A DNA stretch of 64,000 nucleotides from Pyropia yezoensis (taxonomy: Eukaryota; Rhodophyta; Bangiophyceae; Bangiales; Bangiaceae), in NCBI GenBank assembly GCA_009829735.1, contig CM020619.1, positions 13,693,777-13,757,776 of the forward strand. Reading direction: 5' to 3'. The position numbers and the translations under genes are program-made. The notes beneath the pieces were generated by a model. The model saw only the letters and a program-made list of their open reading frames with translations. It was not told where the DNA came from and made no database searches. This document shows, one piece after another, positions 9,701 through 48,906 of the stretch (positions are counted from its first letter, which is position 1; each line of letters starts with the position of its first letter).

Positions 9701-9913
9701 GCATATCTTGTTTGCGCAACAGAACCGGAACCTCCGGGGTCGATCGGGCCCGAACCCTGATGCCTAGTCCGGAGAAGGAACCCTTGCCCGGAACAGAACC
9801 CAGAGTGCGTCGGTGTTTATGTCACTCCGAATGTTAATGGTCGAAGACCGCGCCGATCGCGAAGAAAACCACACCTTAAGAGCCACTTGGAGTCTCGCGC
9901 CCCACTTCACCAT
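6718..9913. other. Intergenic, no gene recognised
   Basis: Mixed sequence that becomes very G/C-rich from 8.8 to 9.6 kb, with short poly-G runs. Frames such as the Pro-rich plus-strand one at 8220-9155 have no domain, no codon-use contrast with the opposite strand and no homolog elsewhere in the window. I call nothing. Confidence 0.5.
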
Positions 9914-15327: not shown

Positions 15328-15797
15328 TGTGCCAAAAACCACTTGCACACACGACACCCAAAATGGGGCGGTGTACAAGGGCTGCCTCCCGTGTCGGGGG
15401 AACCGGAAAAAGTGCAAGTCGCACACACTCTGTCCCTGTTGTGGGGCAAACCCCCCACGGACAAACAAGAGGATGGTGTGTGGTCCAACAGTTTCTTGGT
15501 CGCGACGGGGACGCAGGGCCAAGCCCCGCTGTCCCTCCCCTTATCCCCCCAGGGTCCCCTCAGAATCTCGCCACTCAGAATCTCCCACCCCAGCACCTGC
15601 CCACCGGGCCACACGAAAATTCAAGACGATAAATGCAGTAAAACCCTCAAATCCAAGTTGGATTTACTACTAAGCAAACTATCCCAAACTTAGGGAATAT
15701 GGACGCAAATGCAGGGGGAGGAACGGATCAGGCTAGTGGCCTGCCGCCCCTTGCATGGCATGTGTTGCCCCTTTACCTGGGGGTCAATACTGCCACA
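15328..15797 (-). repeat. 3' LTR of element B (470 bp)
   Basis: Read on minus it runs TGTGGCAGTATTG...TTTTTGGCACA. It is preceded by the purine tract complementary to CTCCCCTCTCCTC at 15798-15810. On the plus strand it contains an open Cys-rich frame (CRGNRKKCKSHTLCPCCG). That frame is antisense to the LTR and is conserved only because the LTR copies are. Confidence 0.95.
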
Positions 15798-15810
15798 CTC
15801 CCCTCTCCTC
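15798..15810 (-). other. Polypurine tract of element B
   Basis: The minus strand reads GAGGAGAGGGGAG directly against the TGTG start of the 3' LTR. This is the expected plus-strand primer for reverse transcription. Confidence 0.85.
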
Positions 15811-16138
15811 AGTTCCGACCGACCCGGTCGGCCCTGTGAGGGGGTGCGTAAACGCACGTCTCGGCGTTGGGGGCGCGACTTGCTGTCCCCTCCGCTTGAG
15901 TACGTAACGCGGATGTGGAGGCGGTCACGTTGACCGCCCCTCTCCTCAAGCTTGCCCACTCGGCAGCTTGCTCTTCTCGGCTCACACTTCACCATCACCA
16001 CCACCTCCCCTTCACCTTCCACGGGGCCGCCCCACGCTGGGGAGGCCACCCGTCTACCCACGATCCGAGTCCCCCTCAACTCGAGGCGGGTCTCGGGCCG
16101 CTGTAGCCAGGGCGTCTCTCCCCAACTTGGGGAGAGCC

Positions 16139-17971
16139 ATGGCTACCCCTGGAGTGGAGACAGACTCTCTTGACGAACGTATAGAGGACACCTCCTACGG
16201 TGCAGCGCCCGCCGGGACTTCCGGCGGGGGCTCCGTGATCGCTCCGGGGGATGGGACTCCCCCGTCACCCGGCTTTGGGTTGACGGCGGGATCTCCCCCG
16301 GAGGCGGGACAAGTTGTCCCGCGTGAGGCCTTGGGGCGGTGGTTTTACCCCTCTTGGCCTCTCTATGAGGAGGGGTTGACTGTTCTTCGCTGTGGCCGAC
16401 TTGGCGCAGCGATGGGTCGGGTATGGGACTGCCTACGGGAGAAGTATCCCCGTAGGGTCGGGTTCCCTGCCGGCTTCAGGACGGACCAGTTTGCCTTCCT
16501 GGACGACGAGGAGGTCGAAGACGTACAGCGGGCCAAGGCTATGGTGGACCGCGGGGGAACTATCCCGGGTCCCGGTGACTTGCCGACCTTTACTTGGGAC
16601 GCGGTGGCAACTCGCCCCCCGTACCTTCACGAGGCCGATCCGCACACTCATCACTGTGGTGTGCGGATGGAGAAGGACTTCCGGCGAGGTCCGTACTTGG
16701 TGACCTCGGCTCAACTTGAGTTCCCTCAGCAGTCTGCTGCCAGTAAGTAGCACTACTATCCGAAGAAGCCCGAGTGGTGGCCTCAAGTTGAGGTCCCCTA
16801 CGGGTTCCCGGCGTTGCTGCCACGGTTGCTTGACCACTTCGGCTCCGTGATGTTGACGGCTGGCCCTGATCATCTGGTGTGGGCCATGTTGGCCACCCAG
16901 TGGCTCCTCGAGGTCATGTCGACCTGGGTGTCTTGTGCTCAGCGGCGGGGGATGCTCTGGCACCTCCCCCTCTGGCTTATCCAAGGTCTGGAACAGCTCA
17001 CCCCTCAGCTAGTTGCTGAGGGGTGCTCATCAGGACAACTCACTCTACTTGAGGAGATGCTCCGCCTTCACAAGTTTATCGAGTGGGAGAGCATTGAGCA
17101 CAAGTTGCGCCGCCCCACTCGTGGGCCCAAGGACGATGGCGCACTTCGCCAGTTCGTGTGGGTCGCTCGTGAACTTCACGACGGCCGTGTGGTCCTTCGC
17201 GAGGGGTTGGGCATCGGGGACTACCCGTATTCCCCGGGAGTGGATCGCCACACTGCGCCACCCCCGGACAAGCCCATAGTTATGGCTGTGCCCTCATATG
17301 ATGACCATATGACTCAACCTACTGCGGGGGCCCCAAGTCGGGGTCGCAGTTACACCCGGGTCCCGCCACCTCGGCGTGCCCCTCCGCTTCCTCCTGTCCC
17401 CTACCAGCCGCACGGGGACATCCCGATTAGCGTGGCCGTTGAGTCATCCACCCCGGTGTCCTCCAACTTGGGGGCCACCCTCCTGACGGTATACCCCAAG
17501 TTGGTGTTACCGCCCACGCCTCTAACCTCAGGGGTGATGGTCACCACGTTGGTGCGCACCATTTCCTGGTTGGCCGCGTCGATCGCAACCCTTCAAACTT
17601 CCAAGACTCCTCAACTTGCGGAGCGCGTTCGTAATGCAGTGGCGACCGCGAGTTGCGAGTCGGTGGCGGAGTTTATGACGGCCGAAATGGCTCGCATTGG
17701 GGCTATTATGCCCCAGCCAGCCCCACTTGGGCGTGGCAAACGTCGAGCGAGTCGGGCATACTCGCCTCCTCGCCGTCGTCGGCGACACTCGCGGCGCTCT
17801 CCCTCTGTGTCGGAAGACGAGTTGTCTTACTCCATCTCGGAGTCCTCGACTCCGTCAGAGTCGGAGTCGGTCCGGCGTCTGCGTCACCAACTTGCGCACA
17901 AGACCAAGCAGAAGGGTAGCCGCGGTCGTCGCCACTTGCGCGACCGTGAGGGGCGCGACGGGTCCGACTAG
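16139..17971 (+). pseudogene. Antisense accessory ORF (aORF) of element B, one in-frame stop
   Basis: An opposite-strand ORF of 610 codons lies between pol and the 3' LTR, convergent with pol (stops 208 bp apart). The start ATG has a good context (GCCATGG). Codon 204 is TAG (16748-16750), after which the same frame runs on to 17971. The region from about 16610 to 17550 aligns with the antisense ORF of element C: RPPYL / RPYL; WWPQVEVPYGFPA / WWETVEVPCGFPA; LWHLPLWLIQGLE / LWHLPPALVEGME; VLREGLGIGDYPYSPGV / FLREGLGDSSLPYAEGV. The N-terminus is acidic and Gly/Pro-rich. The C-terminus is an Arg-Ser tail (about residues 535-610) with an RRRRRHSRRS cluster. No signal peptide or transmembrane segment is evident, and I recognise no family. 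A structural or regulatory role is possible but unsupported. Confidence 0.85.
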
Positions 17972-18178
17972 GAGCCGCCGCCCCCTCCAACGGGTGGGGA
18001 GCGTTATCGCCGTGGGTCTCGCCACTCACCTCTACGTGAGGGCGAGGGCCGTGGGGTTGGAGAGTCTAGCATGCATACCTAGTTGGCAGCTGCCTCTGTT
18101 GTGAGAGTGTGAGGGTTAGGGCTGTAGTTAAAAGCCACTCTGCGTACCACTTCGACTTGAAGCACTCTCTTGGCACTG

Positions 18179-21100
18179 TTACTCGGCCTTCCCTCTCGTT
18201 GAGGGAGGGCTGCTGGGGTCTATCTCATGCCGGGCACAGTATGCCCGGACCTTCTCAGCGGGAAGGTCCTCCACATACTCCCACGTATCATCCTTGGCTT
18301 TGTAGCCAAACCAACGCACCCTCAACATGAGGCGGTCAGTGTCCTCATCCCATCCGTGGTCGATGAACTTATCGAACACGTATTCCTGCGGGCCCTGTTT
18401 GGCTGCAGGCAGTGAGGGGAGGCGCCACGCTTCCAAAGCACGCGCCCAAGCTGGGTCGCCTGCAGGCGGTGGTGCAACTTTGACCACGTCCTGTCCGTTC
18501 ACTGTGCGGACCCCATCGTCACTTTCGATGGTGAAGCGCCGCCCATCAGTACGAAGGACCTGGTACGGCCTCTTCGTCTGGAATACCAACTTACCCCCAG
18601 TTGGGGTGTGTGAGTGAACCAGCACCCAGTCACCCTGCTCGGGGACATGCTTAGCATTGCGCACCTTTTAGTTAAAGGTACGCTTGTAGCGCTTTTGTGC
18701 TTTGTCCATCTCAGCCCTGACTTTAGGGATGAGGTGTTCAAGCCTAGCAGTGAACTCCGCCTTACTCTCAGTAGGAGTAGGCGTACTGCCACCATCCTCC
18801 CTAGTTGGGAGCGACCGCCGCACAGCAATAGACCGGACGCGACGGGGGGTCACAAAAGCGAGGGGTACTTCCCCGGTAGATGAGTGAACCTGTGAATTGT
18901 AGGCAGTAGTAAGAATAGAAATGTATTGGTCCCACGTCTTCACGTGCTCACTCACATAGTGGCGCAGCTGCCTAACAATAGTTTTGTTGAAGCGCTCCAC
19001 CTGCCCATTAGTTTGTGGGTGGTAGGGGGTGGCATAGTTTGCCTTAACCCCCAACATGTCCAGCACTCCCTGAAACAGTACAGACGCAAATTGCGGCCCA
19101 TTGTCCGATAGTGTACTATCTGGGATGCCATACGCGGCAACCCAGTGATCTAGGAAGGCTGACACGACCGACATGGCCGTGATCTCTGCCAGTGGGATCG
19201 CTCGCGTAAGTTTCGTGAAGCGGTCACAGATGACCAGGAGGTACTGGTTGCCCTCCTAGGTCACTGGCAGTGGCCCAAGGATGTCCATCGCCAACGCGGC
19301 GAAGGGCTCCTTGGCCGAGAACAATAGCATAGCCGTACTAGGCCGCCGTTCCATCAGACGGTTCTGTGCACAACTTGTGCAGGCAGCCACCCAACTGTAG
19401 ATGTCCACCACCATGGACGGCCAGTAGTACCTGGTCCTCAGGGTCTGGTACAGTTTACTAGACCCCAGGTGTCCACCCGTGGGAGCGTTGTGCTCCCTCT
19501 CAAAGATACTGCCCTTGAGGGATGCGGGGACGACAAGTTGTTCGGTCCCCTGGAATACCCCCCTCCTCATGAGGAGGCCATCGTCTCCCAGGAAGAACCG
19601 CGTCTCCGCCACTGTATCCAGTGTATCCCTCTGCGACTTGCAGAAGGGATCCTCGGCCTGGGCCTTCACCACCTCGTCCAGGGACAGTGGCAAGTACTTC
19701 TTGTTCCCTGGCGCCTCGGGGTTCAACGCCTGACCCGAGCGCGTGACTACCCCCACGATGGGGATGTCCTCATCGACTGGGTTAGTGTCCAGCCCCTCCG
19801 TAGGTACCCGAGAGAGGCCGTCGGCAAGGGCATGTTGCCTGCCAGGTCGGTACTCAATATCAAAGTTGAAGGGTGCAAGTCGCACCCTCCACCGGTTGAG
19901 ACGAGTGTTCGTACAGTCCGTCTTGAAGATGAACTGCAACGCGCGGTGGTCACAGCGGATGAGGAACTTCTCACCCTCTAGGTAGTGACGAAGTGACGTC
20001 ACCGCCCATACCACTGCGAGTCCTTCCAACTCGGTGACTCCGTAGTTCTTCTCGGCCGAGTTCAGCCCCTTGCTGAAGTATCCCACCGGCAAGTACTCCT
20101 TGTCCGGCTGCTGCTGAAGCAACACACAACCAAGTTGGTCGTAGCTATCATCCACATCCAGGATGTATTGGCCTCCCAACCTGGGAATAGCCAGGATAGG
20201 GGGCTTCAGCAGAAGGTCCCGAAGAGTCTCAAAGGATTCCTGCTCCACCCGACTTGGGGGAGGCAGGTTTTTCGGAAGCGTTGAGCTCACTAACTCATTC
20301 AACGGCTTCGCCACCTTGGCGAAGCCCTTGGTGAAACGTCGGTACACGTTACACATCCCGAGGAAGCTCCTCATCTGGGTCTGGGTCCGGGGGTACTGAG
20401 CCTTACGGATAGCCCTCAAGTTCTTCTCGTTGACGCTGAGACGCCCCGGACAGACAACATGTCCCAAGTATTCCACCTCTTGAGTGAAGAGGTGGCACTT
20501 ACTCGCTTTCAGTGACACACCGGCGTCAGCAAGTAGCTTGAACACCTGGCCAAGATGGCCAATGTGTTCCTCCGGACTTCGGGAGAACACAATGATATCG
20601 TCTAGGTACACGAGACAAATCTGCCACCGTACTCCGGCCAGAATCATGTCCATAGCGCGCTGGAAAGTTGCCGGCGCGTTACACAGACCAGACGGTAGAC
20701 GCTTGCACTGGTAGGTACCACAGTGACAGGTAAAGATAGTTTTATGCCTGTCCTCCGGGGCAATGGGAATTTGCCAGTACCCCGCGTTACAGTCCAGGGT
20801 AGAGAACACGTTCGCCTCCCCAAGAGAGTCCAGACAGTCGTCCATCCTAGGTAGGGGATCACTGTCCTTCACCGTGCTCTCGTTGAGCTTACGGTAATCG
20901 ATACAGAACCGGGGGGTCCCATCAACTTTGGGGACGATAACCACCGGACTCGCCCACTCGGCTTTGCTGGCCTCGATCACATCGAGGGCCTCCATGCGAG
21001 AAACTTGCTCCTTAACGAGGGCCCTTGAACGGGGTCCTCCCCTATACGGTTGTTGGCGTATAGGGGGTGCACCGGGCTTCAACTCGATCCGGTGTTGGGT

Positions 21101-22177
21101 AGCTCTCATGAGTCCCAATTGACCATCCCACAACTTGTGATATTGGTCCAAGAGGCGTTCAACTTGAACCCTCAACCTAGGGGGAACACCCTCCATGTTC
21201 ACATGGGGCCGAGGAGAGGCGGCCGACTTGGCTTGATGCTTCTCCTTTCCGGACTTCGGGTCGCTACTTGCGCCCGCGTTGAGGGTGACCGCTACTACCG
21301 GTCCTTCGTGTTGGTCGATATAGCCGAACTTGGCTCCCGACTTGAAGTACTGGGGCGACGAGCTCAGGTTCATCACCTGGATCCTCCACGGGACTCCGGC
21401 TTTGGAGTCCATCGTGCCAAGGGCAACATGCACTTGATGCTTGCGAGCAAGACGGGGGTAAGGGTGCACCAACCCGTTCCCCGTATAATCAGTTACAACG
21501 TCAACGTGCGCCACCGAGCTGGGGGGCAACGTGACTTTACGGGCTATACGCAGGGTAGCAGTAAACCCTTCCCTCACAGAGCAAGCAGGCTTCGACTGTG
21601 AGACTGTCACAGGAGCCACAGACCTTCCCTTACAAAGGATGGGAATAGTCTCCCCATTCATCAACTTGACCCAGTACTCAGGGCCACAAATCAAAGGCAC
21701 TTGTGTAACAACATAAGGGGTACCCAGAAGCAGGGGTACCGATATATTCTCAACTACACCATAGGTCACGTCGACCTCATGGGTCCCCAACCTAGTTGGT
21801 AGGGTCACGGCACCAACGATGGGAAGTACCCCACCATTGATGTCAATCATATGGTCAGCTTTGGACCTCCAGCGTTGGAGCTTCACCTCCTTTGGTAATA
21901 GCGACTTGCGTATCAAGGAGGCTCCTGACCCGGTATCAAGTACGATACGGGCACAACAGGCGCGGCCGGGGGCAAGTTGCACCCGTCCAGCCACCTGGAA
22001 GTTCTTACCCGTCAGCACCGCGATGACCCGACGTGGGTTTACGTTCTTGGGGAGTCCTACCCGAGGTGGGCGGACTCCCTTAGGTCGCCGCAGTATCCGG
22101 CACGGTTGGTTCGTCCTCATGGCCCACTTGGCCGAGGCTGCCGTTGTGAGCTTCGGACGGCCAGCTCCAACGGTCAT
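18179..22177 (-). pseudogene. pol of element B (PR-RT-RH-IN-chromodomain), two nonsense codons
   Basis: A single frame of 1,332 codons holds the protease (VLDTGSGAS near residue 65), RT with YLDD at 524-527, RNase H (YRPGRQHALADGLSR), the integrase H2C2 module (HNAPTGGHLG...CTSCAQNR), the DDE core (DNGPQFAS, QVERFNK) and a C-terminal chromodomain (FDKFIDHGW...VRWFGY...DTWEYVEDLP). In-frame stops lie at 19256-19258 (TAG, between integrase LGPLPVT and EGNQY) and at about 18666-18668 (TAA, before the integrase C-terminal domain). No indel was seen. The ATG at 22177 overlaps the gag stop (ATGA), but expression more likely uses the frameshift site just upstream. Element C has the same order with no stops. 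Confidence 0.92.
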
Positions 22178-22186
22178 TCGTTTCCC
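22141..22186 (-). promoter_or_regulatory. -1 ribosomal frameshift signal, gag/pol of element B
   Basis: On minus the slippery heptamer G GGA AAC (22186-22180) lies in the gag frame, one codon before the gag stop TGA (22176-22174). After a 6-nt spacer (GAATGA) a stem forms between CCGTTG (22173-22168) and CAACGG (22146-22141). It continues after one bulged base as GAGCT/AGCTC (22167-22163 with 22152-22148), closing a 10-nt loop. Pol lies in the -1 frame. Element C has the same heptamer, spacer length and stem position with different bases in the stem. Confidence 0.85.
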
Positions 22187-24120
22187 GCCGACTTGGCGTC
22201 CGAATCTGAGGGCGGGGAGAAAGACGACGAGTCCGAGGACGACGTGTCCGCCTCCTCCGCCGGGGGTGTGGCGACCGCGACGACCGGTCGAGACCCACCC
22301 TCGCGGCGTGAACGTACTTCGTTCGTAGCCGACTTCTTACTCGCATTCCTAACAAGTTGTTGGGTGCGTTTACTCAACTTGGGGCAATCATATGCCCAGT
22401 GTCCATCGGAGTTGCAGTTCCAACACCGATTGTCTGTTCCGGGAGGGGTCTTCCCGACTGGGGAAGACGAAGAGGTACCCTGGGAAGTTCCCACGGCAGC
22501 TACCACCCTCTCCTTGCGGATTCGGCGTGCCTCTCTCAACTCTCTGGCTCGGCGCGCCTCCTCCAGTTCCTTGGCCAACTCGGCTTGACGCTCCTGGCGT
22601 TTTTCCTCCCGCAACTTGCGGTAGGCCTCGCCTCTGCGGTAGGCGAACCTAGCCAACTCGGCCAGGGTCGCCCGGGCAGTGTTATGCTCCCGGGTCTCCA
22701 TCCGGGCTGACCAATGGAGTCCCTCCACGAACCGACTCTTCACCACAGCTTGTGGATGAAGAAACTCACAAAGATTGTTGAGCTTACGGACTCGCTTCGC
22801 AAAGGACAACTCGTCCTCCGCCTCTTCCTGATGGGCTTGCGTAAACTCCTCGACTTGAGAAGCCAACGCCGATTCATCAACCGTGGCCCTCAACAACCAG
22901 TTGACGAGCTCCAAATAGGACGTCACCTCCCCAGCGCCTCCACTTGAGGAGCTGGGCATGACGGACATAAGTTCTGTCCGCAGGTCTCCCTTCGTAAACT
23001 CCTGTAGCATGTAAAAAGCCATGCCTTCACTTATGGCATTGTCGTCACAGGCTTTTGTGAAACGACGTAGGAACTCAAAGACACGGAGGGGGGGAGTTCC
23101 ATCCCACTCCGCTTTGTGCCCAAAAGAGTGAAGTGCATTCTTCTTGGCAGGGCCCATGGCTCGGGCCTGGTCAGGACCATACGCCACCGACTTGTTGTGG
23201 AGGGCGTAGGTCTCACAATCAAAGATCCTCTGGTAGACCGGGTTGGTCACCTGGACCTTGGGCGGCACCTCACGTTGAGGGAACAGCCGCTGGGGCACTG
23301 GGGTAAACTCACCCTCAGTGCCTGTAGTCCGGCGTGGCGCGCTTGGTGTAGCCGCCGGCGTTGCCGGGGGGTACTCCCCCATAAAGGGCGTATGCCCCAC
23401 CGAGTATGGTGTGGCTCCCTCGTTGGGAGTCACAGGTGTCGCCCCCTGTTCGGGGCGACCCGAGATAGGCGCAAGGGGGGATTCCCCCTGCGCCCGCGGG
23501 CTCGAAAGCCCCGATCCGGTCTGGACATTAAGGCCATCTGGCAAACTCGCCACAATCTGATACAGAATAGTATTCGTCATCGTGACCACCAGGTCCGGCA
23601 AAGTCTGCCGCAACACATTGGTCGCCTCCCGACGGACAGTTTCCGCGAGGAGTGGATTGACGACTCCAGTTGAGTCTCGGTCCGCCTCCGGGAGTCCACC
23701 TGAGGGGTAACCACGTTCCTCAGGGGTCTCAACCGGGGGCATGGGCGCGAGCCCATCGCCGACCAACGGAGGTCCGCCGTCCTCCGAAAGCCTAGTTGGC
23801 GACGGCTCCATGCCAAAGTTGGCTCCAACCCGAGTGGAACCCGCGGGGACAGTCCTCACCCCTTGGGACGTTCCCGTTGAGTATATCCCACGGGGGCCAG
23901 ACTTCGGCCCACCCACATCAGAAGTGTCACCCGAGTGAACTCCCGACTGAGTCGGGGTGGCCTGTTGCCCGCCCGCACTTCCAGTCCTGCTGGCTTGAGG
24001 GACCTCTAGTCCCTCTGCGACCCCAGGTAAACCCACCTGTGTCTCACCAGTATTCAAAGGCACTGAAGTACGTGCGTCACCCGTGTACTCCCCGGACGAC
24101 GGGGGGTCCGAACTAGCCAT
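22174..24120 (-). CDS. gag: Gag polyprotein of element B
   Basis: 648 aa from the ATG at 24120 (MASSDPPSSGEY); an upstream GTG frame extension is not needed, and element C starts the same way (MAGEGDPP). It has a long Gly/Pro/Thr-rich N-terminal segment and a conserved central capsid-like block from about residue 305 (FDCETYALHNKSVAYG...AEWDGTPPLRVFEFLRRFTKACDDN). A charged coiled-coil-like Arg/Glu helix follows (about 500-540), then a CCHC zinc knuckle CWNCNSDGHWAYDC at 566-579, then an acidic Ser-rich end. It is intact, unlike the pol downstream. It packages RNA and supplies the frame from which Gag-Pol is made by -1 slippage. Confidence 0.92.
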   Translation of the reverse strand: MASSDPPSSGEYTGDARTSVPLNTGETQVGLPGVAEGLEVPQASRTGSAGGQQATPTQSGVHSGDTSDVGGPKSGPRGIYSTGTSQGVRTVPAGSTRVGANFGMEPSPTRLSEDGGPPLVGDGLAPMPPVETPEERGYPSGGLPEADRDSTGVVNPLLAETVRREATNVLRQTLPDLVVTMTNTILYQIVASLPDGLNVQTGSGLSSPRAQGESPLAPISGRPEQGATPVTPNEGATPYSVGHTPFMGEYPPATPAATPSAPRRTTGTEGEFTPVPQRLFPQREVPPKVQVTNPVYQRIFDCETYALHNKSVAYGPDQARAMGPAKKNALHSFGHKAEWDGTPPLRVFEFLRRFTKACDDNAISEGMAFYMLQEFTKGDLRTELMSVMPSSSSGGAGEVTSYLELVNWLLRATVDESALASQVEEFTQAHQEEAEDELSFAKRVRKLNNLCEFLHPQAVVKSRFVEGLHWSARMETREHNTARATLAELARFAYRRGEAYRKLREEKRQERQAELAKELEEARRARELREARRIRKERVVAAVGTSQGTSSSSPVGKTPPGTDNRCWNCNSDGHWAYDCPKLSKRTQQLVRNASKKSATNEVRSRREGGSRPVVAVATPPAEEADTSSSDSSSFSPPSDSDAKSAGNE

Positions 24121-24219
24121 GTTGGCTGACGATCCGTACGACACGGTCCAAGTCCACCGTTCCTCTGAGACAGAGGGCCCCCTACACCCGGGTGCACCCG
24201 GAGGTAAAGTTTACCTCTG

Positions 24220-24237
24220 TCCCCTGCTGCTCCACCA
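24220..24237 (-). other. Primer-binding-like site of element B
   Basis: Two bases inside the 5' LTR the minus strand reads TGGTGGAGCAGCAGGGG. Element C has TGGTGGATCAGCGGGGG at the same spacing. A TGG start fits pairing with a tRNA CCA end. I could not name the tRNA. Confidence 0.65.
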
Positions 24238-24239
24238 AA

Positions 24240-24708
24240 TGTGGCAAAAACCACTTGCACACGCGACACCCAAGTTGGGGCGGTGTACAAGTGCTGCCTC
24301 CCGTGTCGGGGGAGCCGGAAAAAGTGCAAGTCGCACACACTCTGTCCCTGTTGTGGGGCAAACCCCCCACGGACAAACAAGAGGATGGTGTGTGGTCCAA
24401 CAGTTTCTTGGTCGCGACGGGGACGCAGGGCCAAGCCCCGCTGTCCCTCCCCTTATCCCCCCAGGGTCCCCTCAGAATCTCGCCACTCAGAATCTCCCAC
24501 CCCAGCACCTGCCCACCGGGCCACACGAAAATTCAAGACGATAAATGCAGAAAACCTTCAAATCCAAGTTGGATTTATTACTAAGCAAACTATCCCAAAC
24601 TTAGGGAATATGGACGCAAATACAGGGGGAGGAACGGATCAGGCTAGTGGCCTGCCGCCCCTTGCATGGCACGGGTTGCCCCCCTACCTGGGGGTCAATA
24701 CTGCCACA
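24240..24708 (-). repeat. 5' LTR of element B (469 bp)
   Basis: Direct repeat of 15328-15797 with about 15 differences. Read on minus it has TGTGGCA...TGCCACA ends and is followed outside by the GCCAC duplication at 24709-24713. Confidence 0.95.
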
Positions 24709-29780: not shown

Positions 29781-30319
29781 TGTGGGAGATTGGGCCGGAA
29801 TTCGGTACCAATACTTTGAAGATTCGGGTCAAGTGGACCTGACCGGAAGTCGAAATTCACCCGACCCACGATGGTGAAACTTCTGACTTCTGGACGGAAA
29901 TTCGACTAGGACTTCCGACATACTAGAGCAGGGTAATGCTGCTGGTATTTGTTTCTTGGGATTTTTGCACGGGAGCCAGACGGATTTCTACGCTTTGAGT
30001 TCTTTGCATGTGGAGTGATATGATTGGTTTGTTTGAGGGTTCATTTTCTGAGTGTTTTGAGGGGTTGCGTGAGCGTGTGAGGAGGGTTGATAAGGAGGGA
30101 CAGCAAGGCGGGGAGGGCCCACCTTGGCTGGCCAAGCAAGAAAACACCGTCTGGCTCCGACACATCTTGTTCGTGCCTTGGTGAGTGGACCCGCTCACCA
30201 CACGCAAGTTCCGTGTTCGGCTGTGTGGAGGTGCTTGCTTCCGGTGTCCCAAGTTGGGATATCGGCAATACTCCTCTTCCTTCCCTGACTCGGGGTTGGT
30301 GCTTGGGAGTACTGCTACA
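29781..30319 (+). repeat. 5' LTR of element C (539 bp)
   Basis: Starts TGTGGGAGATTGGG and ends GGAGTACTGCTACA, so TGT...ACA ends. The same sequence recurs at 38808-39346. Confidence 0.97.
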
Positions 30320-30321
30320 GT

Positions 30322-30338
30322 TGGTGGATCAGCGGGGG
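30322..30338 (+). other. Primer-binding-like site of element C
   Basis: TGGTGGATCAGCGGGGG lies 2 nt after the LTR. It matches the element B site at 15 of 17 positions and at the same 2-nt spacing. Confidence 0.65.
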
Positions 30339-30636
30339 AGAGGATATCGACTTTGGTACCTCCCTTGACCGGAGACGGGACCAAGTTGGCCCCTCTCCCC
30401 CTTCGGCACCGAGACTTCCGGTGACACGATCGACTCGCCTACGTTCCGAGCGTTCGCTGGGCGACGAGGTTGGCCACCGTGAGTCTTGGTGGGAGACCCG
30501 GAGTTTCGGGAAACCTCACCGCCTTCCTTGAGGCAGGTGGAGGGGTGGAACGTGCTCTAGGAACTCCCTAGCTGACGATCCCCGACTCTGGACACCGTTT
30601 GGTCGTTTTGGTTGACTCCACGTGACTCTTGTGGAG

Positions 30637-32400
30637 ATGGCTGGTGAGGGAGACCCCCCCATTGCGCCGAGTGTACCTGGGGAGGGGGAGCGTAGTCCTC
30701 CCCCGACGGGCGGAGTACCACCCAGGCCGGGCAGTGCGGATGTGGTGGGTCCAGAGGTTGGACCCCGACGGCGATCGGCCAGGTTCCTTCCCAGGCCGTC
30801 ACCGGAAGAGACGGGCGGAGTTCGCCCTTCTCCGGTGGGAGCGCCAAGCCAGCGTCAGGCTCCGGCAACCTCTTCGGGGAGTGACGACACTCACTTCGGC
30901 ATGGGACCGCCGACCGGCAGAGGTGACGGGACAGGGAGTTCTGTACCCCGGGTTGGTGGGTCCGCGCCACGACTGGTGCCGGAAGGACCGGGTGGGAGCT
31001 CGAGTCAAGCTCCACCTGGATCATCCGGTATCGTGGATAACTCGGTGATGACTGCCATCGCACAAGTCGTGCGAGAGGAGGTGGGGAAGGCGTTGAAGGG
31101 GAGCACCCCTCCGCCTGAGCAGGCCTCGAGGCGTCAGAAGCGACGGGAGATTCGACGTACTCTCCGTCGTGAGGTGGACTCGGAGTCTGAGTCCTCTGCA
31201 AGTGGCAAGTCGGGTGAAGAAGATCTTACTCGACATGGTCGTGTGACTCACACGGACCGTCTTGGGACTAGAGTCGTCCCAGGAAAGATCGTGGTGAATA
31301 ATCCATTGTTCAAGGATGTCTTCGACTGTGAGACATATGGGTTGGTCAACAAGTCGTTGACCTACTCAAATAGCCAGGCCCGTACCCTGGGCCGGCGCAA
31401 GAAACACGTTGCGCAATCATTCGGGGTCCGTTCAGAATGGGACGGGACTCCACCCCTGAAGGTCTTCCAGTTTTTGCGGAAGTTCGCAAAAGCCTGCGAT
31501 GACAATGATGTCTCTGAAGCTGAAGCGTTTTTCATGCTTCAGGACTTCACCAAGGAGCCACTCCGCTCCGAGGTGATGAACGTCATGCCAAGTCGGCATG
31601 GTGGGAATCCGGGTGAGGTGACCTCCTACCTGGAGTTGGTTAATTGGATCCTTCGTCTTCACGCAGACGAGGCTTCCTTGGCTGTGCAGGTTGAAGAGTT
31701 CAACCGCGCCACCCAGAGTAAGGGTGAAGAGGAACGGGAGTTCGCTGAACGACTCCGTCAGCTGAACGTCCTCTGTGGATTCCTATATCCCCAAGGAGTC
31801 ATTAAGGGACGCTTTGTGGAGGGTGTCCACCGAGCAGCTCGAGCGACTGTGCGAGAGCGTAATACTCCGACCATGACTCTGGCGGAGTTGGCACGCATCG
31901 CCCAGACTAAGGGTGATGAGTACCGCTGGCTCGTGTCTGAGCAGCGGAAGGAACGAGAGAAAGAAGTTAAGGGAATGGAAGCAAGTCGCTTCCGCAGAAC
32001 TGCAAGGATGCCTTCCTACACGCGGACGTACCCTGCAGTACCTTCGTCCTCAACTCGAGAGACGGAAGGTATGGTGGCCGCCATCCCTGATAAGTCACAG
32101 GGAAAAGCGGGGCCATCGGCGTCGATGAGTGATCGGCCGTGTTGGCAGTGTTCCAAGTCGGGACACTGGGCAGCCCAATGCCCCACTCTGGACGTTCGTT
32201 TGAGAGCCCTGTTGGCTCGTATTGGGAAGCTCGGTATTCCGAGGACTGATTCGGATACCCGGCCACACACCACACGTGTGACGGCCATGACTCAACCTAA
32301 GTCAGAGGATGAGTCCACGCTTGAGAAGGGGGAAACCTCTTCCCCCAGCTCAAGTGGCAAGGATACTCCATCATCCGAGTCGGATGAGGGAAACGCCTAG
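30637..32400 (+). CDS. gag: Gag polyprotein of element C
   Basis: 587 aa from the ATG at 30637; the upstream in-frame GTG is not used by analogy with element B. The Pro/Gly-rich N-terminus is followed by a basic segment (about 165-200), the conserved capsid-like block (FDCETYGLVNKSLTYSNSQ...SEWDGTPPLKVFQFLRKFAKACDDN, from about residue 229) and a CCHC zinc knuckle CWQCSKSGHWAAQC at 502-515. A Ser/Glu-rich end follows. It terminates with TAG two codons after the GGGAAAC slippery site. Collinear with the gag of element B. Structural protein of the retrotransposon particle, acting in the cytoplasm and binding RNA. Confidence 0.94.
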   Translation: MAGEGDPPIAPSVPGEGERSPPPTGGVPPRPGSADVVGPEVGPRRRSARFLPRPSPEETGGVRPSPVGAPSQRQAPATSSGSDDTHFGMGPPTGRGDGTGSSVPRVGGSAPRLVPEGPGGSSSQAPPGSSGIVDNSVMTAIAQVVREEVGKALKGSTPPPEQASRRQKRREIRRTLRREVDSESESSASGKSGEEDLTRHGRVTHTDRLGTRVVPGKIVVNNPLFKDVFDCETYGLVNKSLTYSNSQARTLGRRKKHVAQSFGVRSEWDGTPPLKVFQFLRKFAKACDDNDVSEAEAFFMLQDFTKEPLRSEVMNVMPSRHGGNPGEVTSYLELVNWILRLHADEASLAVQVEEFNRATQSKGEEEREFAERLRQLNVLCGFLYPQGVIKGRFVEGVHRAARATVRERNTPTMTLAELARIAQTKGDEYRWLVSEQRKEREKEVKGMEASRFRRTARMPSYTRTYPAVPSSSTRETEGMVAAIPDKSQGKAGPSASMSDRPCWQCSKSGHWAAQCPTLDVRLRALLARIGKLGIPRTDSDTRPHTTRVTAMTQPKSEDESTLEKGETSSPSSSGKDTPSSESDEGNA

Positions 32401-32450
32401 CCGCTGGGACTAAGACTGACCCAAAGGCTCCAGCGGTAATGAAGCGGGTT
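32388..32450 (+). promoter_or_regulatory. -1 ribosomal frameshift signal, gag/pol of element C
   Basis: The heptamer G GGA AAC (32388-32394) is in the gag frame. A 6-nt spacer GCCTAG contains the gag stop. A perfect 7-bp stem CCGCTGG (32401-32407) / CCAGCGG (32430-32436) follows, with a 22-nt loop. Loop bases GACCC (32418-32422) can pair with GGGTT (32446-32450), which would make an H-type pseudoknot. The pol frame is -1 and is open from the slip site to 36428, while a TGA closes it just upstream (32385-32387). Confidence 0.88.
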
Positions 32451-35400
32451 GCTTCACGCTCACCGACCCATGGGAGAGTGAAGGTCCTGACTCGACCTCG
32501 AGGGGTGAGACCTAGGGACAAGGCCCCTCCTCAGAAGCACGACCCGAGTCGGATTGTGTCAGTGCTGGTAGGGAGTAACTACCAGGTCGCAGCTCGACTC
32601 TGGCTGCAGGATGGATATGAGTTTACCTCTCGTGTCATAGTCGACACAGGCTCTGCTGCCTCTCTCATTAGGCAAGACTTATTGCCAGAGGGGACAGATG
32701 TGAGCCCCGCCGGCTCACCCGAGTGGCGTATGTTTGATGTCAATGGGGGACTCCTCCCCATTGTTGGGTCTATTGCATTGACTGTTTGCATTGGGTTCTA
32801 CCAGACGCAGGTGAACTTTGGAGTAGTCTCCAATATGTCAGTCCCCGTACTCCTGGGAACTGACTATCTGGACCTCCATGTCCCGGCCGTCTGTGGACCG
32901 GAAGGGATAATCCGAATGCGTAATGGAGAGACTGTCCCCATATTGCGTAAAGGGAGGACTGTTTCCCCTACGACTCATCAACCTAGGGAAAACTCTCCCA
33001 AGGGTGGAGGCTCTACGACCCATGTACGAGTATGTAAGGGTACGGTAGTCCCGCCCCGATCAAGGACCTTTGTGCGAGTACGCACACGGTTTCGAGGGAA
33101 TGGACTTGTTTCCCCCGTGGACCGAGTCTATTATACTCACCAAGTGCAAGTTGCTTGGGGCCCCATGACTTGTGGGGATGACCAAACCTGGTGGGTGGAG
33201 GTCCTCAACACGTCGGAGGAACCTCGACGACTCCCCGGAGGCATGAAGATTGCGTCGATCTCTACCTTTGAGGGGAATGTCGTTGCTGTGACTCAACAGC
33301 AATGGGAGGATATTGGAATGGCAGGCTCTGCCGACCAATCGAGTTCATCGACGGCTAAGTCGCCGACGGTACATCGGGAGAACATCCCGGAGTGTTTACA
33401 TGGACGACTGGATGAGTTAATCCAGAAGCATCACAAGTTGTGGAATGGTGACCTTGGGCTCATCAAGGCCACCGAACACAGAATCGTGTTGAAGCCAGGG
33501 GCTAGGCCAGTTCGCCTGAGTCCCTACCGTATGGGACCAGACTCACGGGAACTCACCCGAGAGCAGGTCCAACGGATGCAAGACATGGGTGTCATTGAGC
33601 CTTGCTCAAGTGAGTGGGCCAGTCCCATAGTCTTGGTGCCCAAGTCAGACGGCACGATGCGGTTCTGCATCGATTATCGTAAGCTAAACGAGCGGACGGT
33701 AAGGGATAGTTACCCCTTACCCCGTATGGACGATTGCCTTGACTCACTCGGTGAGGCACAGTACTTTTCCACGTTGGACTGCAACGCGGGGTACTGGCAG
33801 ATACCCATCCGCAAGGAGGACAGACACTTGACCACCTTCACGTGTCACTGTGGAGTTTATCAGTGTACACGGCTCCCTTTTGGGCTTTGCAATGCACCTG
33901 CGACTTTCCAGCGTGCTATTGACTTGATACTTGCCGGAGTCAAGTGGCAGATCGCCCTGGTGTATCTGGACGATATCATTGTGTTCTCCGGGACTGCCGA
34001 AGAACACTTGTCCCACTTGGACAGAGTGTTTACCCTGTTGGGTGAAGCAGGAGTAACACTCAAACCTACGAAGTGTCACCTCTTTAGTAATGAGGTGGAG
34101 TACCTCGGCCATATAGTCCGGCCAGGTCGCATTCTGGTCAATGAGAAGAACCTCATGGCCATCCGTCGGGCGAAGTTTCCCCAGACGCAGACACAACTCA
34201 GGAGCTTCCTGGGTATGTGTAACGTATACAGACGCTTTGTGGCGAACTATGCCAAAGTGTCTGCACCGTTGAACCACTTGGTAAGTTCCAAGATGCCCAA
34301 GCGCTTGGATGCTCCCAAACCCCCGGAGCAAGAAGCGTTTGATAGGTTGCGAGAGCTCCTCTGCAACCCACCGGTGTTAGCGATCCCGAGACCGGGGGCT
34401 CACTACATCGTTGATGTGGACGCAAGTTACGACCAACTCGGTTGTTGCTTACTCCAACAACAGCCTTCGGGGGAGTATTTACCCGTTGGCTATTTCAGTA
34501 AGGGACTCTCACCCGCCCAGAAGAACTATTCTGTGACGGAGGTAGAGGGTCTTGGCGTGGTATGGGCAGTCTCCATGCTACGGCCATACATCGAAGGAAG
34601 GAAGTTCCTCATTCGATGTGACCACAAGGCTTTGAAGTGGATACTCACCACTACAGCCTGTACGAATAACCGACTCAATCGATGGCGACTCTGCCTCGCT
34701 GAGTTCGATTATGATGTTGAATATCGGCCAGGCCCGAAGCATGCGGTTGCGGACGCGTTGTCTCGCATACCGACGGATGGGAAAGACACTTCCCCTATCC
34801 CTGAGGAACTCCCTCATGTGGCAGTGACCACTCGCTCCGGAACTGTCCTCGACCCGAGGATGCCTGGCAAGGCCAAATTATTACCCGTGTCTTTGGATGA
34901 GTTTGTCCAGGCACAGGAGAGCGACAAACTTTGTCGACGACTCAGGAAGGAGCTCGACCAGGCTCAACCGACTCGGTTCTTCCTGAATGACAACGGCATA
35001 CTCTGCCGTAAGGGATATACCCAGGGGGACAAGCAAGTCGTCGTCCCCAAGGAGTTACGCAAGAGTATCCTCCAACGGGAGCACTCCTCACCGTTGGGTG
35101 GACACCCAGGGTCTACGAGGATGTATCAGACCCTACGTAAGAAGTACTATTGGCCATCACTCGTGGCTGATGTGTACGGATATGTAGCCGCATGCGCGAC
35201 TTGCGCAAAGAATAGACTCATGGAGTCCCGGCAGACTTCTTCCATGAGACTCTTTCCTGCAACAGAGCCGTTTGCAGCGATAGCAGTGGACTTACTCGGT
35301 CCACTACCACGAACACCTGAAGGATATGAGTACCTTCTGGTGATGTGTGATCGCTTCACTAAGCTCACACGGGTATCCCCACTCAAGGATATCACAGCCG

Positions 35401-36428
35401 TGGACGTTCTGAGTGAGTTACTCGACGTCTGGGTTGCCAGTTATGGCATCCCCGACTCTATCCTTTCGGATAACGGACCACAGTTTGCGTCCGTCCTGTA
35501 TCAGGGAGTCATGAAGATGTTGGGGGTGCAGACGAACTTCGCCACCCCTTACCATCCCCAGACTAATGGGCAGGTGGAACGATTCAACAGGACTCTAGTG
35601 CGCCAGTTGCGTCACTATGTCCATGACCATGTAGTCACATGGGCTCGTTATGCGTCACTACTCGTGACAGCATACAACTCCCAGGTACACAGTAGTACGG
35701 GAGAGGCACCGTTTGCCTTCGTCTGCCCCCGACGACTTCCGTCAGTAGCTGTGGAGCGTCTCACCCAGACTGAGGGTGAGACTTCGACTCAAACACCGAG
35801 TCAGGCGAAAGCCTCCCTACTCCAGAGACTGGAGGAGATGATACCCCTTGTCCGGGCTACTATGGAGAAGGCCCAAGCCCGTTACAAGAGGTACTTCGAT
35901 GTCCGAGTCAGACATCGTCGCGATCCGCTCCGAGTTGGAGATTGGATTTATGTTAACTCCCACGACAATAAGGGAGGGAAATTGGTCTTCAAGACTCTGG
36001 GACCATATCACATCCTTAAAACGGATGGACGTCGGTTAACCATCGAGAGTGATGATGGTATCCGGACAATAAATGGGAATCACGCGACTCGCGCACCCGA
36101 ACCCCCAGAGGGAGATCCCGCTTGGGAAAGGGCTTTGCAAGCATGGAAAGTCCCATCCTTGCCGACCTCTTCCAATAAGCCATTGGAGGCGGTGTTCGAC
36201 AAGTTTGTCGGGCACGGATATGATGAGTCGGGGCGACTCATGCTCCGAGTCAGGTGGTTCGGGTATGGACCAACTTCCGACACATGGGAGTTTGTAGAGG
36301 ACCTACCAGTAGAAAAGGTCCGTAGATACTGCCAGACTGTGGGCATATCTATACGCCGACGTAGCACTCGTACGTCGGGGGATGAAGTCCCTGCTCCAAG
36401 TCAGAGCAGAGCGGCAAGCCAACCATGA
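32439..36428 (+). CDS. pol: Pol polyprotein of element C (PR-RT-RH-IN-chromodomain)
   Basis: 1,329 aa from the first ATG; as a Gag-Pol fusion it would begin at the slip site, 15 codons earlier. It contains the aspartic protease (VDTGSAAS, D69), RT with YLDD at 509-512 and RNase H (YRPGPKHAVADALSR). The integrase has an HHCC module (HSSPLGGHPG...CATCAKNR) and catalytic D951, D1011 and E1047 (spacing 59 and 35). The integrase C-terminal domain is followed by a chromodomain at about 1251-1299 (VFDKFVGHGYDES...VRWFGY...DTWEFVEDLP). There are no stops or shifts. It makes cDNA and inserts it; the chromodomain is expected to steer insertion towards modified chromatin, as known for chromoviruses. Confidence 0.96.
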   Translation: MKRVASRSPTHGRVKVLTRPRGVRPRDKAPPQKHDPSRIVSVLVGSNYQVAARLWLQDGYEFTSRVIVDTGSAASLIRQDLLPEGTDVSPAGSPEWRMFDVNGGLLPIVGSIALTVCIGFYQTQVNFGVVSNMSVPVLLGTDYLDLHVPAVCGPEGIIRMRNGETVPILRKGRTVSPTTHQPRENSPKGGGSTTHVRVCKGTVVPPRSRTFVRVRTRFRGNGLVSPVDRVYYTHQVQVAWGPMTCGDDQTWWVEVLNTSEEPRRLPGGMKIASISTFEGNVVAVTQQQWEDIGMAGSADQSSSSTAKSPTVHRENIPECLHGRLDELIQKHHKLWNGDLGLIKATEHRIVLKPGARPVRLSPYRMGPDSRELTREQVQRMQDMGVIEPCSSEWASPIVLVPKSDGTMRFCIDYRKLNERTVRDSYPLPRMDDCLDSLGEAQYFSTLDCNAGYWQIPIRKEDRHLTTFTCHCGVYQCTRLPFGLCNAPATFQRAIDLILAGVKWQIALVYLDDIIVFSGTAEEHLSHLDRVFTLLGEAGVTLKPTKCHLFSNEVEYLGHIVRPGRILVNEKNLMAIRRAKFPQTQTQLRSFLGMCNVYRRFVANYAKVSAPLNHLVSSKMPKRLDAPKPPEQEAFDRLRELLCNPPVLAIPRPGAHYIVDVDASYDQLGCCLLQQQPSGEYLPVGYFSKGLSPAQKNYSVTEVEGLGVVWAVSMLRPYIEGRKFLIRCDHKALKWILTTTACTNNRLNRWRLCLAEFDYDVEYRPGPKHAVADALSRIPTDGKDTSPIPEELPHVAVTTRSGTVLDPRMPGKAKLLPVSLDEFVQAQESDKLCRRLRKELDQAQPTRFFLNDNGILCRKGYTQGDKQVVVPKELRKSILQREHSSPLGGHPGSTRMYQTLRKKYYWPSLVADVYGYVAACATCAKNRLMESRQTSSMRLFPATEPFAAIAVDLLGPLPRTPEGYEYLLVMCDRFTKLTRVSPLKDITAVDVLSELLDVWVASYGIPDSILSDNGPQFASVLYQGVMKMLGVQTNFATPYHPQTNGQVERFNRTLVRQLRHYVHDHVVTWARYASLLVTAYNSQVHSSTGEAPFAFVCPRRLPSVAVERLTQTEGETSTQTPSQAKASLLQRLEEMIPLVRATMEKAQARYKRYFDVRVRHRRDPLRVGDWIYVNSHDNKGGKLVFKTLGPYHILKTDGRRLTIESDDGIRTINGNHATRAPEPPEGDPAWERALQAWKVPSLPTSSNKPLEAVFDKFVGHGYDESGRLMLRVRWFGYGPTSDTWEFVEDLPVEKVRRYCQTVGISIRRRSTRTSGDEVPAPSQSRAASQP

Positions 36429-36556
36429 GTACAAACACATACCATGGTTCTTCAAAGATTCTCTACTAACAAAGCCGACTATGGCACAATACAAAACGAG
36501 AAGAATACCCACCACTCTTCTCACCAAGGAAAGAACAAGTCGTTCGACCGCTGACT

Positions 36557-38257
36557 CTAGCGTTCCATATGGCCACCCCCACCACTATAGGGACCGCCCG
36601 ACCACGAACCCCCAGGGTCGTAGGCCGGTAGCGGAGGGGCGTAACCCACTCGGGAGGGCCCCGGAGTGGAAGCACTGGGAGGGGCCCGCCGACTCGCGGA
36701 CCCATCCCCGTCGTAAGATAGATGTCCGGAGGTACTCCCTCCGTGACGCGGAAGCTGCTGCTGAGTCGACAGCAGCCGTTGGACAAACTCGTGTCCAACC
36801 GCGAGGCGAGTGACCTCAGCTGCCAATGACTGTCGCGCCGTGGCTGAGTCGCCCGACGCGAGGAAGTGACTGACACGCCGGGTGACCCAAGCCAACGTGT
36901 CAAGGGAGGCCACGAGTGAGGCCTCCACCGTGGCGTCATACATGATGGCTCCCAAGTTGGGAAGCATCTCGCCAACGCCACGCGCAATCGGCATGGGTAC
37001 CGGAGTTCGGACCCGTAGCGAACCCAACGCCACGTCGGGGAAGGGCTCGAGGAACTGGAAGGGTGGAGCCTGAGTCGGCTCCACACCCCCCGAGGTCGGA
37101 GTCGCGACCCGCGGGGAAGTCGTCGGCACAGCTCGCCCGCGGCTTCGAGGGGCTCCTCGATGAGCACCACGACGAGTCGTCGCCGATGATGTCGCCCACC
37201 CAGAGCCAGGGGGCGACGTAGAGGGAGTAACCCCCTCTGCGTAGGGAAGGGAAGAGTCCCCCAACCCCTCACGCAAGAACAGCTGTCCCTGCACCAGAGT
37301 ATGGGTGACATGGACGAACTCCCGGGGTGGCTCACTCTCCAACCCCGGCTCTGGACGCTTGTTGCGGCGGAGGAAGGGTTCCAGCTGCGCCCAATCGAGT
37401 CGATTGTGCAGGGTGACCATACCCTTAAGGAGGAACGGAGCCAGGTCCCCCGCGCCCAAGGCTAACCAGTGGAAGCCAAGGGTTTCCATACCCTCCACCA
37501 GAGCCGGTGGGAGGTGCCACAGGTAACCCCGATGGACTACATCGGAGTACCAGCCCCGAGCCACCACGACCACCCAGTGCGTGGCGAGGTAGGCGAAGAC
37601 CCGGTTACCCTCCGAGCTGGAGCGTAGCACGGAGCCAAAGTAGGCAACGAGGAGGGGGATCCGAGCCGGAAACCCACAAGGTACCTCCACTGTCTCCCAC
37701 CACCCTGGGAGAAAAGGGTACTGGTGCTCACGCTCCTCCAGAGGTACGTGGGTGAACTCCACCCGCGACCCGTGGATGAGGAAGCCCGAGGAGCCCCGGA
37801 GTCGGAACTCCTCTCGCACCACGCCGTGTTGGGCGTGGGCGTCCTCTCCGCCCAGGTAGGGACGGGGAAGGGCACACCACTCGGAAGACACAACCCCGCC
37901 AACGAGGACAAAGGGGGGGGACACGACCCACGCCCCCACCGACAACGAAGAAGCCCGACACAAGGGGCAGCGCGGGGAAGACACAACCCCGCCAACGAGG
38001 ACAAAGGGGGGGGAACACAACCCACGCCCCCACCGACAACGAAGACGCCCGACACAGGGGCGGAAGGGGGAAGACACCACCCCAACCAACGACACCAACC
38101 GCACGGCGGGAAGAGACAGACCCGCCGACGCGAGGGAGCAGCGGCGGGAAGGCACACACCCGCCCGCACACACGAAGGTGAGAGAAGACCCCGCACCGGC
38201 GGCCGAGTCCCACCGCCGGCGACCGAGTGCAACACCCCCAACTCGGGGTGCGCACAC
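36557..38257 (-). CDS. Antisense accessory ORF (aORF) of element C
   Basis: The frame is open from 38257 to 36557 on the strand opposite to pol; stops of pol and aORF are about 130 bp apart. The part from about 37864 (RPYLGGEDAHAQHGV) to the end, some 435 residues, is homologous to the element B aORF (conserved WW..VEVP.GFPA, YLWHLP, FLREGLG). The upstream ~130 codons are translation of the 93-bp minisatellite and contain no ATG, so the true start is unclear; a spliced leader exon or an N-terminal replacement is possible. The middle region is Trp/Leu-rich and probably helical. The C-terminus is Gly/Ser/Pro-rich and lacks the Arg-Ser tail of B. No known domain seen. Its coding nature is inferred from conservation between two diverged elements. 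Confidence 0.75.
   Translation of the reverse strand: MCAPRVGGVALGRRRWDSAAGAGSSLTFVCAGGCVPSRRCSLASAGLSLPAVRLVSLVGVVSSPFRPCVGRLRCRWGRGLCSPPFVLVGGVVSSPRCPLCRASSLSVGAWVVSPPFVLVGGVVSSEWCALPRPYLGGEDAHAQHGVVREEFRLRGSSGFLIHGSRVEFTHVPLEEREHQYPFLPGWWETVEVPCGFPARIPLLVAYFGSVLRSSSEGNRVFAYLATHWVVVVARGWYSDVVHRGYLWHLPPALVEGMETLGFHWLALGAGDLAPFLLKGMVTLHNRLDWAQLEPFLRRNKRPEPGLESEPPREFVHVTHTLVQGQLFLREGLGDSSLPYAEGVTPSTSPPGSGWATSSATTRRGAHRGAPRSRGRAVPTTSPRVATPTSGGVEPTQAPPFQFLEPFPDVALGSLRVRTPVPMPIARGVGEMLPNLGAIMYDATVEASLVASLDTLAWVTRRVSHFLASGDSATARQSLAAEVTRLAVGHEFVQRLLSTQQQLPRHGGSTSGHLSYDGDGSASRRAPPSASTPGPSRVGYAPPLPAYDPGGSWSGGPYSGGGGHMER
37883..38170. repeat. 93-bp minisatellite in element C
   Basis: Units starting GGAAGACAC at about 37883, 37976 and 38069 give a 93-bp period (31 codons), with a partial diverged copy from about 38108. 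The period keeps the minus-strand frame open. The array sits at the 5' end of the aORF homology, the same structural place as the 36-bp array beside element A. Confidence 0.85.
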
Positions 38258-38794
38258 CCCTCAACCCTGACTAGAAAGGGGGGGAAGGAGTGAGGAACAC
38301 CCCGCAGAGAGCCAGCTGGGGGTGGATCGAGCTGAAGGGGGGGACACAACCCGACCCCCCGAGAGCAACCGTACCCCAACTGAAGGGGCAGGTGCAGGTC
38401 GACGTTCCGAGTGAGAACGTCGACGCCCTACTCCTCCAGTTGAGGGGCAGGGGGTGTGGCGGAGGTACGCCGACACCCAGATTAGGGGGCTCACCCACAC
38501 GTGAGTCCACCCGTGGAGCACCCTGACCAGGTGGGGGACGACTTTCCCCCACACCTGTTTCGCGTGGAGGGGGCTCCTCTACCCAGTGTCAGGGCAGAGA
38601 GCGCACCCCACGGAGAGGGACTGCCTCTCCCGGAGGGCCCCGCCGGACGCGAGTGCAACCCCGGCGTAACCCTGGTGCACGCTAGACGCCAGCGATGCAC
38701 CGTACTTTGCATCTCAACTCGGGAATTGCATCCTCCTCTCCCGGTCACTGCGACTCGCCGCTGATTGGACGTCCACCGGGACGGCTGGACTTTT

Positions 38795-38807
38795 GAGAAG
38801 GGGGAAA
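38795..38807 (+). other. Polypurine tract of element C
   Basis: GAGAAGGGGGAAA directly against the TGTGGG start of the 3' LTR. Confidence 0.9.
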
Positions 38808-39346
38808 TGTGGGAGATTGGGCCGGAATTCGGTACCAATACTTTGAAGATTCGGGTCAAGTGGACCTGACCGGAAGTCGAAATTCACCCGACCCACGATG
38901 GTGAAACTTCTGACTTCTGGACGGAAATTCGACTAGGACTTCCGACATACTAGAGCAGGGTAATGCTGCTGGTATTTGTTTCTTGGGATTTTTGCACGGG
39001 AGCCAGACGGATTTCTACGCTTTGAGTTCTTTGCATGTGGAGTGATATGATTGGTTTGTTTGAGGGTTCATTTTCTGAGTGTTTTGAGGGGTTGCGTGAG
39101 CGTGTGAGGAGGGTTGATAAGGAGGGACAGCAAGGCGGGGAGGGCCCACCTTGGCTGGCCAAGCAAGAAAACACCGTCTGGCTCCGACACATCTTGTTCG
39201 TGCCTTGGTGAGTGGACCCGCTCACCACACGCAAGTTCCGTGTTCGGCTGTGTGGAGGTGCTTGCTTCCGGTGTCCCAAGTTGGGATATCGGCAATACTC
39301 CTCTTCCTTCCCTGACTCGGGGTTGGTGCTTGGGAGTACTGCTACA
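38808..39346 (+). repeat. 3' LTR of element C (539 bp)
   Basis: Same length and, by eye, same sequence as 29781-30319. Followed by the ATCCC duplication. Confidence 0.97.
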
Positions 39347-48882: not shown

Positions 48883-48906
48883 TGCCCTGCAGGGGGGGGG
48901 GGACGC

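Follow-up and report, generated by a model that had tools for sequence, protein, structure and literature searches.

Does a long open reading frame (ORF) on the strand opposite to the genes of a retrotransposon encode a protein which the element retains? This question is raised by a stretch of 64,000 nucleotides from the red alga Pyropia yezoensis (GenBank assembly GCA_009829735.1, contig CM020619.1, positions 13,693,777 to 13,757,776 of the forward strand; this whole stretch is called the window in the following), in which two diverged Ty3/gypsy elements, B and C, each carry an antisense ORF (aORF) behind pol. Purifying selection has kept the aORF reading frame, and the aORF is a protein-coding accessory gene retained by these elements. 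What the protein does for the element is a matter of graded probability, as discussed below.

A preliminary description, based on the letters of the window alone, had reported a long ORF opposite to gag-pol, between the stop codon of pol and the 3' long terminal repeat (LTR), in both B and C. Both frames were present at these places, convergent with pol and without overlap with it; since they lie outside pol, neither is the shadow of a gene on the other strand, and their conservation is no by-product of that of pol. Elsewhere in the genome the frames encode 647 (B type) and 638 (C type) amino acids; in the window itself neither copy is intact:

16139..17971, forward strand: B aORF, window copy, with the ATG at 16139, on the strand opposite to pol
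16748..16750, forward strand: in-frame TAA which breaks the window copy of the B aORF (residue 204)
36557..37895, reverse strand: C aORF, C-terminal part of about 70%, with the stop codon at 36557-36559; other copies have 638 amino acids
37895..37909, no strand: deletion site in the C aORF, where about 680 bp are gone and the N-terminus was removed

The stop codon of the B copy at 17971 is located 37 codons before the end of the 647-codon frame of other copies. In C, a segment of 682 bp, which is present in the family copy L031 (positions 2837-3518), is absent at 37895/37909, and with it approximately the first 30% of the frame; the pattern of this deletion junction occurs a single time in the genome. 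The open frame which extends upstream of the C aORF to 38260 is repeat-like sequence and not the N-terminus of the aORF.

The genome which was searched consists of 11 contigs with 107,475,971 bases altogether; the lengths of three contigs lie in the range of 29 to 44 Mb. Copy lists and loci for the analyses of selection were the best matches to a query, ranked by similarity, and are thus biased to intact copies; stop codons were excluded from the counts of non-synonymous and synonymous differences per site (pN, pS). Among 30 B copies, non-synonymous substitutions shared by at least two copies numbered 40 and synonymous ones 111 (ratio 0.124), while singletons amounted to 289 and 166, respectively (ratio 0.599); the difference between the two classes was highly significant (Fisher p 1.7e-15), as was that between the shared changes and the site expectation (p 1e-34). 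In four of the five other frames, the ratio for shared changes lay between 1.5 and 2.9. The last frame, which is on the opposite strand and has its third positions in common with the aORF, gave 0.203, but contained 23 majority stops. For the 24 B copies without deletion, pN/pS was 0.257 in the aORF and 0.199 in the pol end. A first pol-end control (N/S of 0.451 for singletons and 0.587 for shared changes) had mixed in six deletion derivatives, whose pol-end sequence differs, and was therefore redone without them. Comparison of an older C copy (L065) with young C copies yielded an aORF pN/pS of 0.264; four other loci fetched as possibly diverged (L062, L063, L064 and L066) were C-family copies and were omitted from the counts. 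Overall, conservation of the aORF was comparable to that of the pol end in B, and less so in young C copies and between B and C.

A third lineage, L067 (G000 C1:3607250-3610150), was found with the query P0010 and consists of a pol end followed by a convergent aORF. The antisense ORF lies between pol stop and 3' LTR in B and C, and in L067 it was seen to follow the pol end. Identity to C was 69% over 208 amino acids in the pol end and 48% over 626 codons in the aORF, which had 3 stops in 648 codons. For this pair of aORFs, pN was 0.346 and pS 0.615 (uncorrected ratio 0.56); with Jukes-Cantor correction, dN was 0.46, dS 1.29 and dN/dS about 0.36. Third codon positions differed most (360, versus 224 and 205 for the others; p 9e-13). 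The suggestion that a reading frame conserved on this strand would mean a functional protein was thereby supported, with a pN/pS of 0.257 in B and a dN/dS of about 0.36 against the third lineage rather than values near 1. A weak pol-like match (46% of 39 amino acids, E 3e-4) was noticed at L067 1967-2074, on the sense strand facing the aORF.

Random stops in the other family members would have spoken against a protein; instead, those copies were mostly open, with the reservation that the ranking favours intact ones. In B, 406 matched residues starting past the window TAA were stop-free in 100 of 102 scored places, and when the 647-amino-acid protein of locus L023 was the query, stops occurred in none of 68 places; for the C aORF, 56 of 69 rows had no stop. 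From the ATG, the 647-codon frame was open in 21 of the 30 B loci retrieved, a set to which the window copy belongs, and the 638-codon frame in all 31 C loci (the 30 best matches and L065). About 40 of the 68 B places tied in score, apparently representing one identical protein, which is a sign of a recent burst. With at most one mismatch, a 29-mer of the B aORF was found at 1,012 sites of the genome and a 32-mer of the B integrase at 1,101 sites, and reversed k-mers as controls at none. Judged by these figures, which are site counts and not paired copies, the aORF is present in most copies of the B family; the family would fill an estimated 9 Mb if most copies were of full length.

The aORFs of B and C are homologous. 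The pieces in the window matched with 42% identity over 174 amino acids (blastp, E 4e-36), and less damaged copies, P0001 of the C type and L005 of the B type, with 36% over 288 amino acids (E 3e-44). A homology of more than 300 residues, as proposed initially, was reached with the longer proteins, when a profile of 10 C-type relatives was aligned to L005 with hhalign (384 columns, E 9e-40), and not with the window pieces. Differences between B and C per position of 517 codons were 336 at third positions, and 278 and 241 at the others (p 3e-4, near saturation). The conserved core comprises about 290 residues with the motifs PYLGG.DAH, WW..VEVP.GFPA, LAT.W, LWHLP and LREGLG....PY..GV, and is surrounded by low-complexity tails; there is also an N-terminal motif, which reads LGTEESLSRGSAM in the C relatives. 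The C-terminal 130 residues have a pI of 12.3 in B and of 7.7 in C. Membrane-like stretches were not present in the aORF proteins, the highest hydropathies over 19 residues being 1.23 and 1.38. Structure prediction, which had been recommended in the preliminary description, produced no usable fold: two AlphaFold2 models had mean pLDDT values of 36.1 and 43.1, too low to judge, with a core mostly of helices. The low confidence is probably due to the scarcity of relatives. Homologs with a named source came from Pyropia vietnamensis and Porphyra umbilicalis only, although distant ones may be missed, since the protein database searches scored 8,000 candidates sharing most words. No match, and no zinc knuckle, was obtained with Pfam at E up to 10; there were also no matches to NCBIfam at E up to 1, to sequences of the PDB at E up to 10, or to phage records.

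The elements which carry the aORFs are listed here with their LTR pairs, target site duplications (TSD) and Pfam matches, among them those to reverse transcriptase (RT):

15328..24708, reverse strand: element B, Ty3/gypsy with a chromodomain-like C-terminus (LTR pair, Pfam scan, TSD)
15323-15327 and 24709-24713: TSD of B, GTGGC (5 bp)
15328..15797, reverse strand: 3' LTR of B
24240..24708, reverse strand: 5' LTR of B, matching its 3' counterpart at 97% identity
22174..24210, reverse strand: gag frame of B; CCHC zinc knuckle with 25.4 bits, above the Pfam cut-off
18179..22336, reverse strand: pol of B, RT, RNase H and integrase to the chromodomain-like tail; in-frame stops at 19256-19258 and 18668-18670
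29781..39346, forward strand: element C, Ty3/gypsy, with LTRs at 29781-30319 and 38808-39346
29776-29780 and 39347-39351: TSD of C, ATCCC (5 bp)
30616..32400, forward strand: gag frame of C; zinc knuckle with 20.0 bits, just below the cut-off of 20.8
32388..36428, forward strand: pol of C, 1346 codons, uninterrupted; RT-RNase H-integrase and a weak chromodomain match
38795..38807, forward strand: purine-rich tract of C adjoining the 3' LTR

A purine tract precedes the 3' LTR of B as well. The LTRs are 470 bp long in B and 539 bp in C, with identities within the pairs of 97% and 100%, respectively. Matches to the Pfam Chromo family following the integrase reached 23.0 bits in B and 16.7 bits in C, both under the cut-off of 25.1 bits. 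Element B is flanked on both sides by a pair of repeats (9911-10778 and 25679-26544, 89% identical), which are taken as the terminal repeats of A, an older LTR element; B was probably inserted into it. The window copy of C contains a 118-bp repeat at 91% identity; tandem repeats were not reported in the C-family copy L031. Elsewhere in the window, a unit of about 224 bp occurs four times in tandem at 61169-62066, with 97% identity between the second and third copies, and GCC/GCG repeats abound in the region 48000-54600, where both strands have long open frames.

The B family includes a short, mobilised derivative of 5,018 bp (L061 5144-6101 and L023 1-4140; G000 C1, about 13896443-13901460), with both LTRs and the TSD GTCTG, in which gag is largely missing and pol is deleted from RT to the middle of the integrase, and which has kept the end of the integrase and an open aORF. 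Its deletion junction was found at 65 sites of the genome, 53 of them exact. Five of six fetched copies (L014, L016, L023, L024, L025 and L027) had the 647-codon frame, which was interrupted in L016; of 16 junction sites position-matched by hand to scored aORFs, 14 were open, one had a stop and one a shortened frame. As the derivative has no RT, it is presumably copied with proteins of other elements. Among the six copies, pN/pS was 0.077, a value for which their young age or an exchange with other copies may be responsible, since the L023 protein is matched at 99-100% by many places which do not have the junction. Selection within the derivatives is for these reasons not claimed, and retention of the aORF may be a consequence of need, of a cis signal located there, or merely of the placement of the deletion.

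What could such a protein do? The elements probably need it, as it was kept in several old lineages. The view which we somewhat prefer is that the aORF is a genuine accessory gene of a group of Ty3/gypsy elements from bangialean red algae, which may encode a nuclear protein that regulates the element. Its transcription and function are inferred here from the layout and from plant elements, for whose antisense ORFs such a role has been proposed. Transcription of the aORF would start at a promoter located in the 3' LTR or close to it and would run on the strand opposite to that of the genomic RNA; translated apart from Gag-Pol, the product would be a soluble protein with about 640 amino acids and with the core and tails described above. 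With lower confidence, this protein could enter the nucleus and regulate its own element, by relief of silencing, control of transcription, or handling of RNA or DNA. The basic tail predicted for the B protein would fit contact with nucleic acids or nuclear import.

Several observations weigh against this view. The C form is without the basic tail, and the failed structure models would give a nuclear role no support from a fold. Identity between B and C is 32% in the aORF versus 57-65% in pol, i.e., the aORF diverges faster. Window C has lost part of the frame despite its identical LTRs, which means that loss of the aORF can be recent. The weakest point of the case for selection is the value for 30 young C copies, whose pN/pS was 0.449 in the aORF versus 0.201 in the pol end, with a pS of only 0.006; shared changes in C were also few (11 non-synonymous and 13 synonymous, ratio 0.318). 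The leader, which separates the 3' LTR from the ATG, shows less conservation in B (0.0388, versus 0.0238 for the LTR and 0.0255 for the aORF core), and in C it is the least conserved part (0.0073); no conserved promoter was seen in this leader in either family. The nuclear regulatory role is the leading guess.

According to its main rival, the aORF product would be a further structural protein or a constituent of the particle, either resembling a capsid or acting as a partner of Gag, with its role in particle assembly. The mostly helical core in the models would be in line with this to a small extent, but models of such confidence are too weak for a judgement. Alignment with hhalign to both Gag frames of B and C gave a probability of 0.2 each; with neither a CCHC knuckle nor any Pfam match, a Gag origin of the aORF was rejected, and a particle protein appears unlikely. 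Capture of a host gene, or of a passenger from another mobile element, with no role in replication, is improbable, too. LTR elements are known to capture genes (PMC7264820), and no likeness of the protein to those of other elements was found; however, three diverged lineages have the aORF behind pol, the number of its sites is close to that of the integrase, and it is under selection. Antisense non-coding transcripts of retroelements have also been described (PMC7264820), and the antisense RNA itself could be the functional product, acting as double-stranded RNA or in chromatin control, with the ORF being incidental. Such a role alone predicts no bias for a frame, contrary to the shared ratio in B and the dN/dS to L067, and we consider it very improbable. 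An Env-like protein in reverse orientation would have the expected location between pol and 3' LTR, but is scarcely credible for an antisense gene whose product has no transmembrane-like stretch. A chance open frame in GC-rich DNA, for which the many long open frames on both strands of the window could be quoted, can practically be dismissed in view of the homology across lineages and the frame-specific selection.

A more far-reaching and rather doubtful idea is that the antisense proteins of red algal Ty3/gypsy elements form a lineage-specific class which favours its own copy, e.g., by countering silencing by the host. This would explain the spread of a derivative poor in gag and pol which kept its aORF, and also the fast but constrained, arms-race-like evolution of the protein. 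With about a thousand B sites in a genome of 107 Mb, the aORF belongs to an abundant parasite of the alga; near-identical copies, diverged lineages and the short aORF-keeping derivative make its function directly testable.

How does the algal aORF compare with known systems? Most descriptions of antisense accessory genes of LTR elements concern flowering plants, and no function is known for these genes (PMC7264820). Those located between pol and 3' LTR (aORF-3R) include gene23 of Grande of maize, and ORFs of RIRE2 of rice, Retand of Silene, PvRetro13 and, in the fungus Botrytis, Boty; in Grande, the antisense gene is driven by a promoter of its own and its product is nuclear (PMC7264820). The algal aORF has the same place and orientation, occurs likewise in most copies, is conserved to a degree similar to that of other proteins of the element and is without clear relatives outside. 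It differs by its red algal host, the chromodomain-like tail of the elements and the lack of a Pfam domain; Grande, RIRE2, PvRetro13 and Boty were likened by description only. Retand, a non-chromovirus lineage of flowering plants, encodes TRP28 proteins (PF04195; PMC11963269) in antisense orientation in the same region. The region VP.GFP..P...F may resemble plant TRP28 proteins; an identity with TRP28 was rejected, as PF04195 had no match in the algal genome at E up to 10, nor in the aORF proteins. With respect to TRP28, the earlier impression that no relation to the plant antisense ORFs could be recognised was upheld by this comparison. Retroviruses of the HTLV type possess antisense genes near the 3' LTR with a regulatory role (PMC7264820, PMC11963269). 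Antisense coding near the 3' LTR is common to these and the algal aORF, the likeness being one of description only. The HTLV-type antisense product has about a third of the size of the algal protein.

Ty3/gypsy elements with chromodomains occur in plants, fungi and algae (PMC2864245, PMC3350952, PMC3605345), and red algae are said to host chromoviruses, too (PMC3605345); PMC3350952 reports that no retrotransposon chromodomain was found in the Porphyra yezoensis data of its time. Elements B and C may resemble this group by a chromodomain-like tail following the integrase, and differ from it by the extra antisense gene. Brown algae have Gypsy elements with chromodomains outside the chromoviruses, and Sola1 of Ectocarpus carries an accessory gene opposite to its replication gene, which was proposed to modify the element's own DNA (PMC12477816). 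Sola1 and the aORF thus share an opposite-strand accessory gene in algal mobile DNA; however, Sola1 is a DNA transposon with ParB-like and methyltransferase domains, to which the aORF gave no Pfam match. Within the open-licence literature of PubMed Central, as represented by excerpts, no description of an antisense ORF in an LTR element of red algae was found. Antisense ORFs in this position are as a kind already known from plants and one fungus; the algal proteins represent a new family. If a red algal family in the same place has no detectable relation to TRP28, such genes would have had more than one origin, and a repeated origin argues for a common need.
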